This document shows positions 16,234-43,176 of a DNA stretch of 64,000 bases, piece by piece. The notes below the pieces were generated by a model. It was not told the origin of the DNA, made no database searches, and worked only from the letters and a program-made list of their open reading frames with translations. The position numbers and the translations under genes are program-made. Numbering within the stretch: position 1 is the first letter of the stretch; every line of letters starts with the position of its first letter. The stretch is taken from assembly GCF_014207845.1 (NCBI RefSeq), contig NZ_JACHLC010000001.1, positions 310,001-374,000 of the forward strand. Direction: 5' to 3'. Source of the stretch: Chryseobacterium shigense. GTDB lineage: Bacteria > Bacteroidota > Bacteroidia > Flavobacteriales > Weeksellaceae.

Positions 16234-16264
16234 TTTGCTGAATAAAAAAATAGTTGTAATTTTG
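16234..16264 (+). promoter_or_regulatory. Bacteroidota-type promoter of rpsO
   Basis: TTTG (16234-16237), 19 bases, then TAATTTTG (16257-16264), an exact fit to the TTTG / TAnnTTTG consensus and spacing, 35 bases upstream of the rpsO ATG. Confidence 0.8.
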
Positions 16265-16299
16265 CAGCCGTTACATAATAATCATTAAACAATATTGGA

Positions 16300-16569
16300 A
16301 TGTACTTAACAACAGAAAAAAAGCAGGAAATTTTCGCAAAACACGGAAAATCTGCAACAGACACAGGAAGTGCTGAAGGACAAGTTGCACTTTTCACTTA
16401 CAGAATTAACCACTTATCTCAACACCTGAAGGCTAATCGTCATGATTTCGCTACAGAAAGATCTTTGGTAAAATTGGTAGGTAAAAGAAAAAGTTTACTA
16501 GATTACCTTAAAAATAAGGATATCGCAAGATACAGAGCGATCATCGCTGAACTAGGTTTAAGAAAATAA
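16300..16569 (+). CDS. rpsO: 30S ribosomal protein S15
   Basis: 89 residues, the normal S15 length. S15 binds 16S rRNA helices 20-22 in early 30S assembly. Typical strings are DTGSAEGQVALFTYRINHLSQHL and LVGKRKSLLDYLKNKDIARYRAIIAELGLRK. Codon use is highly biased, and a strong promoter and terminator frame it as a single unit. In many bacteria rpsO and pnp are adjacent; here pnp lies 2.7 kb downstream, with two genes between them. Confidence 0.98.
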   Translation: MYLTTEKKQEIFAKHGKSATDTGSAEGQVALFTYRINHLSQHLKANRHDFATERSLVKLVGKRKSLLDYLKNKDIARYRAIIAELGLRK

Positions 16570-34104: not shown

Positions 34105-35163
34105 TTAACTGTACAATTTTTCCCGTATTTCTATTAAGATTTTCTCTGTCTTTTCTGCATCCGGATAATCGGGAAGAGTAGAAATGGAATGATAATATTC
34201 TATAGATGCTATCAAATCCTCTGCTTTTTGCATAACGGATTCATAAGACCAGTTTCCGGCTTTGATTTCCAATAGTTCATCCCTGTTATCTACACGGATC
34301 TGCAAAGAATTTGTTTTGAATATCTGTTCACAGGACTGCAGTAAACGGATGGTATGCATCATGTTTTTACTGTCATAGTTCTGTCCGTGCTCCTGATTGA
34401 CATTGTAACGGTCTTCATTACGTTCGGAAACCCATTTCCAGTATTCCCTGTAGTCTTTGCAGTAAGTGGAGTAGGCATCCAGATTGCAGAAGAGATACGC
34501 TGCCGGCTTTTCGTCTTTCGGAACGGATGATACGGAAACCTGGTTGGCTTCTTCATGCTGTATAATTCCTTTATAACCAAAATTTCCGGATTCATCATAA
34601 AACAGGGCATACATTCCTTTGGTATTCCCGATATTGGTGAGTCCACATTTTTCCTGTATTTTACCATTCTCTGAAAGCCATTTTTTCAATGAAACCGAAC
34701 CCTGATCTTCAAGAATATAGCAGAAATCAAGCACAGATTTTCTTTCTTTTTCTATTGGATTAAGGATCTTTTTGTTGAGTCCTTTGGCTTTCCTGATCTG
34801 TGAAACAGCGTATCCGGCAAAGGTATCTTTACATAATTTTGATAAGAAATCTTCAGTCCGGAGAAGATTCATCAGGGGATTTTTATAAATAATACAGTCT
34901 TCCGTACTCGCCAGCACTTCCAGGATATTAGGATTGTTTTTTTGTAACAGTTCCACAAATCTTCCGATCTCGTAATAAGTAATATCATTCGTTTCATTGG
35001 AGATCTGAGGAATATAATTCAGTCCGAAAAACTGATCTTTGGGAAGATAATAAACCCCACGTATATCCGTGTCGGAATTTTCCGTTGCAAGTCCGAAAGA
35101 TCTGCTTCCAGAAATGGTTTCGAGGAGGATGAGGTTATTGTTTTTTAGAAATTCAATAGTCAT
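34105..35163 (-). CDS. RlaP-type (PF10127-like) nucleotidyltransferase, long form
   Basis: 352 residues. The DNA polymerase beta-like nucleotidyltransferase core is visible as ISGSRSFGLATENSDTDIRG (G19-S-R at 19-21; D31 and D33 metal ligands). A long helical region follows, with strings such as SQIRKAKGLNKKILNPIEKER and GQNYDSKNMMHTIRLLQSCEQI, which match the RNA-repair-associated polymerase-beta group RlaP. Such enzymes are thought to repair or add nucleotides to RNA ends. It is the last gene of a four-gene operon, 10 bases after the ATP-grasp gene, and rtcB lies 4.4 kb away. The role in RNA repair is inferred from family and context. Confidence 0.85.
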   Translation of the reverse strand: MTIEFLKNNNLILLETISGSRSFGLATENSDTDIRGVYYLPKDQFFGLNYIPQISNETNDITYYEIGRFVELLQKNNPNILEVLASTEDCIIYKNPLMNLLRTEDFLSKLCKDTFAGYAVSQIRKAKGLNKKILNPIEKERKSVLDFCYILEDQGSVSLKKWLSENGKIQEKCGLTNIGNTKGMYALFYDESGNFGYKGIIQHEEANQVSVSSVPKDEKPAAYLFCNLDAYSTYCKDYREYWKWVSERNEDRYNVNQEHGQNYDSKNMMHTIRLLQSCEQIFKTNSLQIRVDNRDELLEIKAGNWSYESVMQKAEDLIASIEYYHSISTLPDYPDAEKTEKILIEIREKLYS

Positions 35164-35173
35164 AGTTTCATTT

Positions 35174-35908
35174 TTATAGATTCTTCACACAACTTTCCAC
35201 AATCACTTCCAAAGCCTTCTCCGCATCACAGGCATATAAACCTGAACACCATGCCGGATTCGCTTCAATTAAAGCCCAGCCTTTTCCTTTGATCATTCCA
35301 AAATCAAGAACGATGGCTTTTGGAAGAGTTTCAGAATATTGCTTAATGAAATTATTGAAAAATTCAGACAAATCTTTTTGCTCGGTTTCAGAGAGCGGAC
35401 CTGTGTTGAAACTGTTGTTTCGCCAATATGAAGAATGGGTCTTTATTTCATTGTTTAAAACAAAGCATCTTACTTCCAGTTCCCATTCCACAATTTCTGA
35501 TGTGAAGACCATGCTGTTCAGATCCAGGGAATCAAATCCTTTGATATCCGTTATTTTTTCATAGACACCGGCTTTGAAGCTTTTAAAATCAGAACACTTG
35601 ATAAAAATATTTTCCTGATCGATATTTTGCTTCAACTGACCATAAGAAATTTTGCGTTTTGTAAATGTTTCAGAAATTAAGGAAAGCCAGTTGTCATCAG
35701 GTTTCAAAAGCGTCAGTCCACACTGGTCCGAAACAATTTCCGCATAAATATCTTCGCCATACACAGCAATAACATCATCCCGGAACTCTTCCGGAACATT
35801 CCATTTGGCATTGAAACGATTCAGCTCGTAGGGCGAATTAATCGATGCTTTTTTCAGGTTATTGCTGTCTTCCGTATACATAGGCGAAAGCGCTATTATA
35901 TTTTTCAT
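35174..35908 (-). CDS. ATP-grasp domain protein (R2K clade-like)
   Basis: 244 residues. The second half shows ATP-grasp features: VEWELEVRCFVLNNEIKTHSSYW (strand and nucleotide-site residues), then LPKAIVLDFGMIKGKGWALIEANPAWCSGLYACD with the Asp and Glu-x-Asn metal ligands near the end. I recall ATP-grasp proteins of the R2K clade next to RlaP and RtcB in bacterial RNA-repair and conflict gene groups. ATP-grasp enzymes form carboxylate-amine type bonds, so it may modify a protein, peptide or RNA end. It lies between an SMI1-like gene (11 bases) and an RlaP gene (10 bases), so they are co-transcribed. The substrate is unknown. Confidence 0.8.
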   Translation of the reverse strand: MKNIIALSPMYTEDSNNLKKASINSPYELNRFNAKWNVPEEFRDDVIAVYGEDIYAEIVSDQCGLTLLKPDDNWLSLISETFTKRKISYGQLKQNIDQENIFIKCSDFKSFKAGVYEKITDIKGFDSLDLNSMVFTSEIVEWELEVRCFVLNNEIKTHSSYWRNNSFNTGPLSETEQKDLSEFFNNFIKQYSETLPKAIVLDFGMIKGKGWALIEANPAWCSGLYACDAEKALEVIVESCVKNL

Positions 35909-35919
35909 TGGATGTGTTT

Positions 35920-36561
35920 TTACATGGTATGTTTTTTTAGTATCAGTTCACTTACCAAACGGTAATGATTTAATATTTTATATTGTATTTCCGCTCCGTT
36001 GAATACTATTTTTTCACTCATTCCATGATAGCATCCTCCGGAATATCCCTTTTTATCGCTGGTAAGAATCAGGTATTCTGCGCCTCCGCAATCAGAATAA
36101 ACATCCATTACGATCATGAGTTCCTCCTGATTTCTGCCGCGTTCTTCATAACATTGATCAAGGAATGACAAATCTATATGTTTGGCTTCGAATTTATTTT
36201 CTTTAATCATAAACTCGCATTCTCCTTCTTCCATTATTTTCTGAAGCCATTCATAATCTGCTTCTTCTCCGAATGTCTCATAGAATCTTTTGACTATATA
36301 ATTCACAAAATCTTTTGTATAAAAGATGATTTCATAAAGATAATCATGTCTTTCTTCCCAGAAAACCCGGTAATAAAAATTAGTTTCAGGAACCTTGTAT
36401 TTGGTGAAAAACTCTTTATAAACGTCAGGCACAATCAGTCCGTATTCTTCCTTAAGATATTCACATCTTTTGATGAAAGGATGATTTGAAAAATCTGGAA
36501 CAGTAATTTTTCGCTCAGGGATTGAAGTGTTTTTCTTTTTTAAAAAGTTAAATAGTTTCAT
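35920..36561 (-). CDS. Hypothetical protein, possibly SMI1/KNR4-like
   Basis: 213 residues, acidic and without signal peptide. The start KLFNFLKKKNTSIPERKI is followed by PFIKRCEYLKEEYGLIVPDVYKEFFTKYK, a helix-rich pattern resembling SMI1/KNR4 domains, which often serve as immunity or binding modules. The latter half has many aromatic and acidic residues (YSDCGGAEYLILTSDKKGYSGGCYHGMSEK). The match is by eye only and weak. It is the second gene of the operon, 5 bases after one nucleotidyltransferase gene and 11 before the ATP-grasp gene. Confidence 0.55.
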   Translation of the reverse strand: MKLFNFLKKKNTSIPERKITVPDFSNHPFIKRCEYLKEEYGLIVPDVYKEFFTKYKVPETNFYYRVFWEERHDYLYEIIFYTKDFVNYIVKRFYETFGEEADYEWLQKIMEEGECEFMIKENKFEAKHIDLSFLDQCYEERGRNQEELMIVMDVYSDCGGAEYLILTSDKKGYSGGCYHGMSEKIVFNGAEIQYKILNHYRLVSELILKKHTM

Positions 36562-36566
36562 CTTTT

Positions 36567-37319
<753 letters not shown>

Positions 37320-37455
37320 TTAATTTTAATGCAAAGTAAGAGGGTAAGTGCGTAGTCTTTTTGCGTAGAAAAATAAGCTGTGGAGATTTTAGGATTGAAG
37401 AATATCGAAACTTAAAATAAAAGCTATAGATGAACAACAAAAGCAATTATATATA

Positions 37456-37947: not shown

Positions 37948-38967
37948 TCAGTTTTCATCCGGAACAATTAAATTCTCATAGTTCCTGTGTCCTGCCTTGA
38001 ATTTATCCTGCAGCCTCAATCTCAGATTTTTAGGCTTATGAACAATCAGGCAGTCTCCAAAGCCCAGAAACAGTCTTTCCAGTTCAAAATTAATTTGAAC
38101 GCAGATTTTAAACAGGGTACCTTCTTCACTTTCGCTTATAATTTCCTGGCTTTTGTGAAGCGGTTTTGTTTTTACATAGGGTGCATTTGAGGAATCTACA
38201 AAAAAGACAACATTCCTCGGAGCCATAGTTTCGGAAACTGTAACACCAACAATATCTTTAAAATATTCATCGCCATCCAGGTCTTTGTCAATATACTGGA
38301 TATTTTCCTCTACATCAATCTTTTCCATCCTGTCCAGGGCTAAATTATACATTTTACCCTTATGCAGGCAGATCAGGAACCATCTGTTATTAAATTCCTT
38401 CAAAAGCTGCGGATGAACAATATAATTACTGGATTCTCTGGCGGTAAAACTGCGGTAAATAATATTCAGCACCTTTTTATTTGAAATGCTTTCATACAGG
38501 ATATCAATATGTTCAAGTCCCTTCAGCTGCTCATTTTTATCCAGATGAATGATAGATTTCTGTCCTGTGGAATGGATGGAATCTTCCAGTTTCTGAATCA
38601 CTCCGTTCATCTCTTTGAACATGGAGAAATCTTTAAACTGCTTCAGGATCTGAACTGCATTATTCATGGCTTTCAGGTCGCTTTCGTTCACAGAGATATT
38701 ATGAATGCTGTATTCCGGGTCGCTGTATCGGTAATATTTTCTTTCATATACCTCAATGGGAGCTTCATAGCCGAATTTTTCACTCCGCATATTCTGCAGG
38801 TCGAGCTGAACTGTTCTCCTGCTTACATAAGATTCTTTGCCTTCAAATTCAAACAGGGCATCGGAACATGCATCGATGAGATCTTCCAGGGTATATTTCC
38901 GGTATTTGTTCTTAAGACATTTATCTAATGTTTTGTAGCGGATCAGGGCATTTTTATTGGATGACAT
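37948..38967 (-). CDS. WYL-domain transcriptional regulator
   Basis: 339 residues. An N-terminal winged-helix region (ALIRYKTLDKCLKNKYRKYTLEDLIDACSDAL, SRRTVQLDLQNMR) is followed by a WYL domain (about 155-230: IIYRSFTARESSNYIVHPQLLKEFNNRWFLICLHKGKMYNLALDRME) and the C-terminal WCX extension. WYL domains often sense nucleic-acid fragments or nucleotides and regulate DNA-damage, phage-defence or RNA-repair genes. It is placed between the RlaP operon and rtcB, so it may sense broken RNA and control both; that link is inferred from location. The HopJ-type gene lies 71 bases upstream in the same direction. Confidence 0.9.
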   Translation of the reverse strand: MSSNKNALIRYKTLDKCLKNKYRKYTLEDLIDACSDALFEFEGKESYVSRRTVQLDLQNMRSEKFGYEAPIEVYERKYYRYSDPEYSIHNISVNESDLKAMNNAVQILKQFKDFSMFKEMNGVIQKLEDSIHSTGQKSIIHLDKNEQLKGLEHIDILYESISNKKVLNIIYRSFTARESSNYIVHPQLLKEFNNRWFLICLHKGKMYNLALDRMEKIDVEENIQYIDKDLDGDEYFKDIVGVTVSETMAPRNVVFFVDSSNAPYVKTKPLHKSQEIISESEEGTLFKICVQINFELERLFLGFGDCLIVHKPKNLRLRLQDKFKAGHRNYENLIVPDEN

Positions 38968-39502: not shown

Positions 39503-40951
<1,449 letters not shown>

Positions 40952-41016
40952 TTTTTAATTTAATATAAATCTTGAAGGCATAAAACCTGAAAGATTATCA
41001 AAAAAACTAATAACCC

Positions 41017-41046
41017 AACCTTACAGGTACAAAAGCCTGTAAGGTT
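41017..41046 (+). other. Stable hairpin between rtcB and the tRNA-like RNA
   Basis: AACCTTACAGG / CCTGTAAGGTT arms of 11 pairs with a short loop. No T-run follows on the plus strand, so it may be a processing or stability element rather than a terminator. Confidence 0.55.
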
Positions 41047-41070
41047 AATGAAAACTATTTCATAACGGAA

Positions 41071-41177
41071 GGGGCAGTAGCTCAGATGGTAGAGCAACAG
41101 AATTACTTTTCGCTGCAGGCAAATAAAGTTCCTATGAATCCCAATTGTGTGTCACAGGTTCGAGTCCTGTCTGCTCC
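41071..41177 (+). ncRNA. tRNA-like RNA with expanded anticodon arm
   Basis: 107 bases. The acceptor stem GGGGCAG / CTGCTCC has seven pairs including one G-T, a D-arm GCTC / GAGC with a GG-containing loop, and a T-arm ACAGG TTCGAGT CCTGT. All invariant residues are kept: T8, A14, G18G19, A21, G53, T54T55C56, A58 and C61. In place of a normal anticodon arm stands a rod: ACA-G-AATT (41097-41104) pairs with AATT-G-TGT (41143-41150), then ACTTT / AAAGT (41105-41109 / 41125-41129) around a 15-base loop. No 7-base loop or anticodon is seen, and CCA is not encoded. It is likely a tRNA mimic, comparable in principle to Y RNAs, or an intron-containing tRNA. It lies on the strand of rtcB. Confidence 0.75.
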
Positions 41178-41237
41178 TCAAAACAAAGAAAATGCTTATA
41201 TTCACGTATCAGTCATTTTCATATATTAAAAAATTAA

Positions 41238-41400
41238 AGGCAAAGAAAATTCCTATAATTTAGAATTACTTTCCGCCTTTTCACAAATTATAAGGCAAAG
41301 GGAGTTCCTATATTTTTTGGATAAATTACTCCCCGCTTTTTATAAACTATAGGTAAAAGGAGTTCCTGTATCCTTCACTTTTAATGATTTTACTCCTCAC
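41238..41400 (+). repeat. Three imperfect hairpin repeats with compensatory changes
   Basis: Each unit has a 19-base B-motif (AGGCAAAGGGAGTTCCTAT in unit 2; starts at 41238, 41293, 41351) and a following A-motif (AATTACTCCCCGC in unit 2; starts at 41264, 41324, 41387). The pairing segments vary together: GAAAAT with ACTTTC (one mismatch), GGGAGT with ACTCCC, AGGAGT with ACTCCT. The connecting bases are not conserved. A further pair occurs in the order A then B within the tRNA-like RNA (41101-41113 and 41117-41135; TAAAGT with ACTTTT). This implies conserved RNA hairpins rather than DNA sites. The third unit ends 21 bases before the next start codon. Confidence 0.75.
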
Positions 41401-41421
41401 TTATTTTTTAAACTTAAAACA

Positions 41422-43176
41422 ATGAAAACACTACAATTATTCAATGCTGTAATAGCCAGAAAATCCGGTGAAAAGCCATTCATCTCTAATGAAGGTTTTA
41501 TCATTGAACCAGATGCTGTATGGGCGAAAAATGAGATCATATCTTATTATGCAAAGGAAAAATTAAACGGAAATGATCTGAACAAAACCTTTCATAAATC
41601 CTGGGAGAAAATAAAGAATACCTCCAGAATTGAGTTGCTTTTTGAACAGATCAGACATTATATTTCAACGTATGGAAGCAATTTCCAAAGTGAAATCTAT
41701 ATTCCTGATGAAATACTGAATGTTCCTGATATGAAGCTGGTTTTTAAAGTTATAAAAGCCTATTCTGCAGAAGAAATGCAGGAAAAGTGCCTTTCTCTTT
41801 TGAGATCAGGAATTGCCTTAAAAGAAGAAACCATTGATGAACTGCTTTATATTTTACATACAGAGCTGGAATACGATTTTACAGGAAAAGAAAACATCAG
41901 AAATAAAGAAGCTGTTATAAAAATAGCCGATCTGTACGATATCTACCCTGAAAATCCTGTTGAGTTTTTCCGTTACGTTATTTATAAAACGACCAATACT
42001 ACACTTTTAATCAAAAGTGATGATCTGATTGATTTGATCAGGCAAAGTAAATTTAACCCAACCTATCTGTTCGAAAGCTTCGGAATGGAAAAGATGGCGG
42101 AAATTTTTAACAGATTCAAGCCGTTATTCCTTGCTTACAAAAACAGGGCGCCTAAAGCGATCAATAAAATTTCAAAGCTGTCTAAAGTACATCATAAACC
42201 ATTGATTTCAAATCCGTTGAATGATGCTACGAATACACTATTGGAAAACAGCGATTGGCACTGGCTGGACAATGCGACACCGTTTGCATTATTCAAAGCA
42301 CTGTCAGCATGTTATTCAAGAATGTATGGCCAGGATACGTTTGTTTACAGGGTGAGAAATGGAAAGTCATGGGTTAAAAAAGGTAAGGAAACTTACGTGA
42401 ATCAGTTCAACTATGATTTTATTCTGGATTATCTGAAGCTGAAATATGAAAACCTGTCCGGAAAGAAATTCTATTTCCCTGAGAATGTAGAATTTGCATT
42501 GCCAACTTCTGAAAAAATGTTCGTTGGAAATATTCCTACCGGAACCCGTTTTTATGGTGAAAGACTGGCTGTAGGTATTTATTGGGAAGATCAGTGGGGT
42601 GCCCGTGACCTTGACCTTTCAGGATTGAATATTGCCGGAAAAATAGGCTGGAATGCAGCCTATAATTATGGTGACGGACAATTGATGTACTCCGGAGATA
42701 TGACTTCCGCTCCTAACGGTGCCGTTGAATATCTTTATGCCAATAAAGGACTGTCTACACCAACCCTTATCATGAATAACGTTTTCAGCGGAGATGCAAA
42801 CTGTGGATATAAAATCGTAATTGGAAAAGGAGATAATATTTCCTATGATTATATGATGAACCCTAACAGTCTCTTTGCCGAGGCCAGATGTAACTCCGTC
42901 CAGAAGCAAATGATCCTGGGAATGCTGGTGGCAAAAAACGAAAAGCAATGTTTCGTACTGTTGAATTTTGGGGCCGGACATTCTCATGTGTCAGGAAATA
43001 GCCAGGTTTCCATGATGGCAACAAGTGCATTGTATCAGCAATGGTACGAAGCCATGTCGTTCAATAACCTTATAAAAGAGCTTGGAGCGGAGATTACAAC
43101 GGAAAAAACAGAAGCCGATTTCGATTTCTCACTGGAAAGCCTTGAAAAAGATAGTTTCACAAAGGCTTTTAAGTAG
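41422..43176 (+). CDS. RtcB-associated protein with TerD-like C-terminal part
   Basis: 584 residues, cytoplasmic. Residues 1-300 are almost entirely helical (EFFRYVIYKTTNTTLLIKSDDLIDLIRQ, FNRFKPLFLAYKNRAPKAINKISKLSKVHHKPLI) and end in ALFKALSACYSRMYGQDTFVYRVRNGKSWVKK. The last 230 residues read GIYWEDQWGARDLDLSGLNIAGKIGWNAAY, QLMYSGDMTSAPNGAVEYLY and PTLIMNNVFSGD, a pattern like TerD domains and, as I recall, MXAN_6230/SCO0854-type proteins. Its place behind rtcB and a tRNA-like RNA parallels the TROVE protein Rsr, but I see no TROVE or MIDAS motif. Function unknown; an RNA-binding role is inferred. Confidence 0.7.
   Translation: MKTLQLFNAVIARKSGEKPFISNEGFIIEPDAVWAKNEIISYYAKEKLNGNDLNKTFHKSWEKIKNTSRIELLFEQIRHYISTYGSNFQSEIYIPDEILNVPDMKLVFKVIKAYSAEEMQEKCLSLLRSGIALKEETIDELLYILHTELEYDFTGKENIRNKEAVIKIADLYDIYPENPVEFFRYVIYKTTNTTLLIKSDDLIDLIRQSKFNPTYLFESFGMEKMAEIFNRFKPLFLAYKNRAPKAINKISKLSKVHHKPLISNPLNDATNTLLENSDWHWLDNATPFALFKALSACYSRMYGQDTFVYRVRNGKSWVKKGKETYVNQFNYDFILDYLKLKYENLSGKKFYFPENVEFALPTSEKMFVGNIPTGTRFYGERLAVGIYWEDQWGARDLDLSGLNIAGKIGWNAAYNYGDGQLMYSGDMTSAPNGAVEYLYANKGLSTPTLIMNNVFSGDANCGYKIVIGKGDNISYDYMMNPNSLFAEARCNSVQKQMILGMLVAKNEKQCFVLLNFGAGHSHVSGNSQVSMMATSALYQQWYEAMSFNNLIKELGAEITTEKTEADFDFSLESLEKDSFTKAFK

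Follow-up and report, generated by a model that had tools for sequence, protein, structure and literature searches.

How does a bacterium use an RNA that has the body of a tRNA without the loop that reads codons, and which protein does this RNA work with? The question is raised by a 64,000-nt stretch of Chryseobacterium shigense DNA (hereafter the window; the host genome measures 4.15 Mb), where the gene order is RlaP cluster (34105-37313, minus strand), WYL regulator, HopJ-family gene, rtcB, tRNA-like RNA, three hairpins and a gene for a 584-aa protein. Named relatives of this locus are mostly Chryseobacterium. A preliminary description of the RNA took it for a tRNA mimic directly behind an RNA ligase gene, and proposed that it could be a Y-RNA analogue, a substrate or sensor of RtcB, or a bacterial intron-type tRNA. 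We consider it probable, from a computational analysis of the window and its relatives, that this 107-nt RNA is a Y-RNA-type tRNA mimic and the partner of the 584-aa protein encoded behind it.

The main features of the locus are as follows.
34105-35163, minus-strand cluster: second, more distant RlaP (PF10127, E=8.9e-23)
36567..37313, minus strand: RlaP nucleotidyltransferase of RNA repair (PF10127, E=1.4e-68)
37349..37367, plus strand: second operator-like site, before the RlaP operon
37948..38967, minus strand: WYL-domain protein between two operators, candidate regulator (PF13280, E=1.2e-10)
39510..39528, plus strand: operator-like palindrome TGCGCA-N7-TGCGTA with a TACTTTGCA box downstream, before rtcB
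39560..40951, plus strand: RtcB RNA ligase (PF01139, E=9.8e-35)
41071..41177, plus strand: tRNA-like RNA, 107 nt (RF00005 match; 48 homologues aligned, pairs counted)
41422..43176, plus strand: 584-aa protein with a helical N-terminal part, putative RNA-binding partner

A tRNA body with a grafted hairpin

The tRNA-like RNA is real and constrained, and it consists of the following parts.
41071-41077/41171-41177, plus strand: acceptor stem
41080-41095, plus strand: D arm
41097-41101/41144-41148, plus strand: anticodon stem
41105..41136, plus strand: hairpin grafted where the anticodon loop would be, ACTTT-TC-GC-TGCA-GGC-AAAT-AAAGT-TCCTATG (its segments are retained by 44-48 of 48 copies)
41154-41170, plus strand: T arm

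The Rfam tRNA model RF00005 matches positions 41071-41178 with 46.6 bits (gathering 29), the acceptor, D and T arms are intact, as first claimed, and the tertiary residues listed at that time (T8, A14, G18, G19, A21, G53, T54, T55, C56, A58 and C61) are kept in 47-48 of 48 distinct homologues. Fold and tertiary residues are thus those of an RF00005 tRNA, but 34-47 nt separate stem positions 31 and 39 in 48/48 aligned copies, in place of a 7-nt anticodon loop, and the preliminary description was right on this point too. It had also drawn the anticodon arm as a long interrupted rod, the outer part of which (ACA-G-AATT/AATT-G-TGT) does not hold in homologues; these keep an ordinary anticodon stem instead (27-30/40-43), with a normal 5-nt variable region and a fifth pair that forms in just 12 of 39 copies. 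The inner ACTTT/AAAGT helix, on the other hand, is paired in every one of the 48. ARAGORN makes no tRNA call on the window copy, and in 4 of 63 homologous intergenic regions it calls a tRNA-Arg(CCG) or an undetermined tRNA of ~99 nt; since the CCG letters fall within the conserved graft, we take this call as a misfit.

Comparison carries the case for this structure, because single-sequence folding is uninformative (the folding energy is unremarkable, z = -1.06, and the anticodon stem is absent from that fold). In the alignment of 48 distinct copies, which leaves out five identical copies and one with an interrupted T loop (L051), 97.4% of the cells pair under the tRNA structure with its grafted hairpin, a structure that was preset from the tRNA fold. 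Eight pairs change on both sides (three in the acceptor stem, four in the anticodon stem and one in the T stem), and these changes occupy 41 cells versus 11.9 in shuffles that ignore kinship among copies, 0/500 of which score as high. The weakest measure on the same shuffles, further pair types, gives 23 versus 20.4 and is reached by 23 of 500, while sliding the partner by 1-3 columns makes pairing fall to 31-50%.

The graft behaves differently. Its consensus over homologues is ACTTT-YC-GC-N4-GGC-ANAN-AAAGT followed by TCCTAT, with GGC and TCCT kept in 48 of the 48 copies, ACTTT in 47, GC in 46 and AAAGT in 44, and none of its pairs shows changes on both sides in this alignment; being conserved in sequence, the graft alone tells little by covariation.

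The leader hairpins and the 584-aa protein

The graft motif is repeated downstream, at 41239-41401, in the 5′ leader of the 584-aa gene, a repeat that the preliminary description had overlooked. It is the same motif with its strand order permuted.
41239..41277, plus strand: leader hairpin 1, GGC-AAA-GAAAAT ... ACTTTC-C-GCC (one helix pair broken, compared with GAAAGT in relatives)
41294..41337, plus strand: leader hairpin 2, GGC-AAA-GGGAGT ... ACTCCC-C-GCT
41352..41401, plus strand: leader hairpin 3, GGT-AAA-AGGAGT ... ACTCCT-C-ACT

The unit consensus is GGC-AAA-RRRAGT-TCCTATA ... ACTYYY-C-GCC, and the motif is usually present two or three times per leader: a unit finder run on 63 genus leaders, which missed window hairpin 1 (GAAAAT instead of GAAAGT), returned three units in 43, two in 18, one in one and none in one. 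Six perfect Watson-Crick pairs are formed in 151 of the resulting 166 units when the best-pairing candidate is taken as segment s2, a choice that favours the motif; when s2 is picked blind to s1, pairing within the unit (G-U allowed) is complete in 136/166, versus 71/294 for any cross-unit pairing within the same leader. An alternative in which s2 pairs with the s1 of the following unit does less well, with 38/104 fully paired, and was rejected. The units covary as paralogues, as seen in the compensating inner helices GAAAGT/ACTTTC, GGGAGT/ACTCCC, AGGAGT/ACTCCT and, with five pairs, CAGAGT/ACTCTC, and in the outer helix variants GGC/GCC, GGC/GCT and GGT/ACT. The last unit is AGGAGT/ACTCCT in 62/62 leaders with units found. 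Across 98 genus genomes, the motif pattern matches in 65, that is, in 62 of the 63 with the 584-aa gene and in three without it (G017, G034 and G064), and at least 12 of the matches listed lie off the 584-aa locus; the reversed pattern, used as a control, gives 13 matches in the 98 genomes.

The 584-aa protein has no match in Pfam, NCBIfam or PADLOC. Residues about 370-532 probably form a TerD-like C-terminal domain, and the N-terminal part, considered for the HEAT-ring fold of Ro60/Rsr, is helical in a predicted model of uneven and on the whole low confidence (mean pLDDT 67). Homology to TROVE proteins was considered and finds no support by sequence: the protein has no match to PF05731 up to E=10 (the single genome-wide match being the rsr gene on contig C5), profile comparisons of the family with TROVE give E values of 0.37-0.5, and a TROVE hmmsearch of 46 family members at maximum sensitivity yields at best 7.0 bits (L188), with an E value of 0.0043 that applies to that small set. 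By eye, residues 284-345 resemble the stretch that precedes the vWA domain in Ro proteins, a resemblance with which no tool agreed. VIA-align showed no Ro structure among the 50 matches listed, in an alignment that is uninformative for the N-terminal part and excludes nothing. The family is narrowly spread, since profile A1 finds it in 7 of 345 phylum genomes and 16 of 148 family genomes, and a search for plasmid relatives gave no plasmid match. A 692-aa protein from another genus of the family (L078 1018-3096) has a C-terminal part that resembles the TerD-like domain, matching the 584-aa profile at 378-439 (E=2.1e-6).

The company the RNA keeps

Gene content tells with which gene the RNA belongs, and it is the 584-aa gene rather than rtcB. 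A match to the 584-aa protein was found in 63 of 98 genus genomes, a few of the genes being broken (G012, G021, G033, G063 and G093) or reduced to a fragment (G035). The tRNA-like RNA lies upstream of the gene in 54 of these 63 loci: under strict filters, and with matches listed down to about 61 bits, the RNA model R1 reaches at least 90 bits in 53 of the 98 genomes, all with the 584-aa gene, and a broken copy (L051 in G019, with an insertion of ~50 nt in its T loop) makes 54. No copy of at least 90 bits occurs in the 35 genomes without the gene, 32 of which have a full-length rtcB orthologue (at least 83% identity; that of G076 has a stop in frame), the others having an rtcB fragment (G039), a distant paralogue only (G064) or none (G079). 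At the nine gene-bearing loci without the RNA, no D-arm or T-arm core (AGCTCA or GGTTCRA) is left, and the tRNA-like RNA must be dispensable, since eight of the loci keep gene and leader intact.

The named relatives, which are the best 80 of 115 and overlap with the genus genomes, concur. A GTTCCT core is found at least twice in the 450 nt 5′ of the 584-aa gene in 80/80, and at least three times where the tRNA-like RNA is present (a count of the core irrespective of hairpin pairing). The tRNA-like RNA (at least 71 bits) is present in 65 of the 80, and rtcB lies within 1.3 kb upstream of the gene in 65 as well; of the 15 relatives in which it does not, a count that includes two contigs starting only about 1.2 kb upstream of the gene (L190 and L192), 11 keep the RNA, and two of these 11 (L191 and L198) have rtcB 2.6-3.3 kb upstream. 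Together, the 35 genomes without the gene and the 15 relatives without an adjoining rtcB speak against RtcB as the partner of the RNA, a reading that was rejected on these grounds.

What the locus shares with rtcB is an operator-like sequence. The pattern TRCGYA-N7-TGCGYA occurs at five sites genome-wide (none for the reversed control), before rtcB, RlaP, rsr, a Y-RNA array and one further locus, and this putative operator links rtcB, RlaP, rsr and the Y-RNA array. In the 3.5 kb that precede the 584-aa gene, it is found in its strict form in 58/80 relatives and, with one mismatch and a TTTG box, in 77/80 (reversed control 0/80). Judging by its neighbourhood, the WYL protein may be the reader of these sites.

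Y RNAs, phages and rival explanations

The closest known system is the rsr-yrlBA-rtcBA operon of Salmonella, in which, according to two papers, the Y RNA YrlA goes with Rsr, an orthologue of Ro60 (PMC7790460, PMC8394870). The window RNA shares with YrlA/Rsr the mimicry of a tRNA by D arm, T arm and acceptor, a stem that replaces the anticodon arm (observed here, its protein binding being putative and suggested by co-occurrence), an rtcB neighbour and a gene for a partner protein, putative in our case, in the operon. It differs in that it is unpermuted, with free acceptor ends and normal tRNA order rather than the YrlA order (T arm, closed acceptor, D arm), that its stem motif is another one, that its proposed partner is not detectably a TROVE protein and that the motif is also arrayed in the mRNA leader of this partner. 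The YrlA model RF02553 finds nothing in 40940-41440 up to E=5. According to a review (PMC4030889), Ro60 primarily recognises a bulged cytosine of the stem, and bacterial Y RNAs have kept this cytosine; the single C opposite a 3-nt A-rich loop in the window motif bears a likeness, and only a likeness, to it.

Other tRNA-like RNAs have been linked to RNA repair. Burroughs and Aravind reportedly described in 2016 a 'novel tRNA-like molecule' that, like the window RNA, belongs to RtcB/RlaP repair loci, and that is said to be tied to SPFH/Band-7 cofactors. A TROVE protein and its 'tRNA-like partner' are described as a platform for RNA repair (PMC7824862); this partner, too, is a tRNA-like RNA of repair loci with RtcB and RlaP, but it is tied to TROVE. 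No description of the window RNA was found in the titles, abstract beginnings and passages that our literature search covered, and a prior description is possible.

C. shigense itself has a Ro-type system, at L081 6377-9800 on contig C5, which comprises an Rsr/TROVE gene (TROVE E=8.2e-31; vWA_Ro60 27.1 bits, just below the cut-off of 27.7) and YrlA-like permuted tRNAs. At least two of these lie behind rsr (36.5 and 35.8 bits, below gathering), more are visible by eye, and by eye their stem sequence is unlike the window motif. TROVE was found in 19 of 247 phylum genomes. A second class of tRNA-like RNA, of 126-132 nt and 61-70 bits, occurs in at least ten genus genomes among the matches listed, and in nine fetched loci (L114-L122; e.g. 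L115, G022 C4:741639-741770) it directly precedes a 458-aa gene, which Pfam identified as TROVE in the single case tested (L118, E=1.7e-11). This class resembles the window RNA in its tRNA body, the hairpin graft in its anticodon arm, the leader hairpin (by eye, the leader of the 458-aa gene repeats the graft motif) and the operator, which lies at about -50 in 9/9; it differs in length, in its graft (GGTGTGA...TTACTTCG) and in its TROVE partner gene. Two different proteins thus stand behind the same RNA architecture. The second-class RNAs sit in RlaP clusters, and in some of these Thg1 and a kinase-like AAA_33 gene are present as well.

Further afield, the arrangement becomes more varied. Some Flavobacteriaceae loci have tRNA-likes in tandem (L067, L186, L191, which is the same stretch as L106, and L198). 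Among 18 distant loci, 12 have a leader unit with a T-arm sequence inside it, and the predicted folds of these units show a T arm with a further stem in six (L188, L192, L194, L197, L202 and L206), no more than the T arm in L191 and different pairings in five. By tblastn, homologues of the 584-aa protein are present in five phage records, from the Synechococcus phages S-CRM01 (34.9% identity) and S-CBWM1 (33.5%), with two records each, and from the gut phage Phass-1 (27.8%, partial). In both Synechococcus phages the homologue genes sit inside large tRNA gene clusters. The S-CRM01 gene is preceded by five motif units and followed by one, and the S-CBWM1 gene is preceded by one, in the stretch to which the scan was limited. 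In all seven units the outer helix is complete and the C is present, with six inner pairs in six and five in one, s2 again being the best-pairing candidate, which favours the motif; in Phass-1, two short stretches (33 and 26 nt) contain no motif. In one S-CRM01 unit (L236 4615-4732), the T arm is followed by an acceptor that a UUCG loop closes and then by the D arm, which is the YrlA order, and RF02553 matches this permuted tRNA with 35.9 bits (E=2.8e-6), below its gathering threshold of 69; the permuted structure does not appear in a free-energy fold of the unit alone. In this phage, the window's motif would thus provide the basal stem for a Y-RNA-like molecule. This unit, together with the Rsr gene and YrlA-like RNAs of the C. 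shigense genome, speaks for the Y-RNA half of the earlier proposal, the RtcB half of which is not supported. Two annotated pseudo-tRNAs lie behind the S-CBWM1 homologue gene.

What else could the RNA be? It might be purely cis-acting, tRNA-like and hairpins together forming one regulatory 5′ UTR of the 584-aa gene that senses tRNA-handling proteins or uncharged or cut tRNAs, with no free RNA. The units do sit between the upstream gene and the start codon, and the motif core is found in all 80 relatives, including the 15 without a tRNA-like; this is nevertheless an unlikely explanation, since a full tRNA elbow and a covarying acceptor stem suit a tRNA-shaped product, and the tandem tRNA-likes, the Y-RNA array under its separate operator at the rsr locus and the S-CRM01 unit behind the gene all argue against it. 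Far less probable is that RtcB uses the RNA directly, as a substrate, decoy or sensor, in spite of the proximity of rtcB in 65 of the 80 relatives and of the shared operator, because 32 genus genomes keep rtcB with no strong copy of the RNA and 11 relatives keep the RNA with no rtcB next door.

In archaea and animals, tRNA exons are ligated by RtcB, and this lends some appeal to an intron-containing tRNA, the arm insert of which would be spliced out before RtcB joins the halves into a decoding tRNA. It is precisely the insert that is conserved, however, and an mRNA leader contains it again; an uninterrupted version did not turn up at this locus either, the nine RNA-less loci having no D-arm or T-arm core, all of which makes this reading hard to credit. 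We give as little credence to a decayed tRNA invaded by a repeat element, to which the broken L051 copy and the motif matches away from the locus might point: covariation in the acceptor, anticodon and T stems over 48 copies contradicts decay, and the leader units covary among themselves.

A Y-RNA-type partner of the 584-aa protein is the reading that we favour. Some observations count against it: the protein is not detectably TROVE and its model is of low confidence, the RNA is dispensable, the two Phass-1 stretches contain no motif, the YrlA-like RNAs of the C. shigense genome have another stem sequence by eye, and no pair of the graft changes on both sides. Binding, processing, recruitment and regulation by this putative RNA/protein pair may be pictured as follows. 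Damage would turn on a small RNA-repair regulon via the operator, perhaps through the WYL protein, and RNase P and tRNA 3′ nucleases would excise the tRNA-like RNA. The graft at the anticodon-arm site would be the protein-binding site and the intact tRNA body, with its elbow and acceptor, the 'effector' module, so that the RNA bound by the 584-aa protein could offer a handle of tRNA shape, by which enzymes that handle tRNAs are either recruited to the side of RtcB or excluded from it. The same site in opposite strand order in the 584-aa mRNA leader might serve autoregulation or provide further Y-RNA modules. The tRNA-shaped RNA and the leader hairpins suggest a little-known family of RNA-protein particles that resemble the Ro/Y-RNA particles of animals and bacteria. 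On balance, we lean towards a second, TROVE-independent lineage of Y-RNA particles, in which a helical and TerD-like protein family of Bacteroidota and tRNA-rich cyanophages would recognise one particular stem, made up of a 3-bp helix, an AAA/C internal loop, a 6-bp helix and UCCUAUA. In this reading the stem is joined to normal tRNAs, at their anticodon arm, as well as to permuted YrlA-type tRNAs, and is also arrayed in the family's own mRNA leader, host and phage versions competing or cooperating in tRNA repair. If true, this would mean that (i) tRNA mimicry and a tethering stem have been combined with a protein that is not Ro60, (ii) what is essential for Y-RNA function may be the tRNA-shaped module and not the Ro ring, (iii) the two strand orders of the motif are a natural permutation experiment and (iv) the phage copies in tRNA clusters link these particles with the conflict in which tRNAs are cleaved and repaired.

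A few minor features complete the picture. The fifth operator site (L125, C5:124234-124252) precedes an uncharacterised open reading frame of 142 aa. A perfect 11-bp inverted repeat (AACCTTACAGG/CCTGTAAGGTT) is found at 41017-41046, just 5′ of the tRNA-like RNA, and hairpins resembling it are seen by eye at the same place in a number of relatives. Elsewhere in the window, 16257-16302 is an ordinary S15 ribosomal protein leader of Flavobacteria (RF03161).
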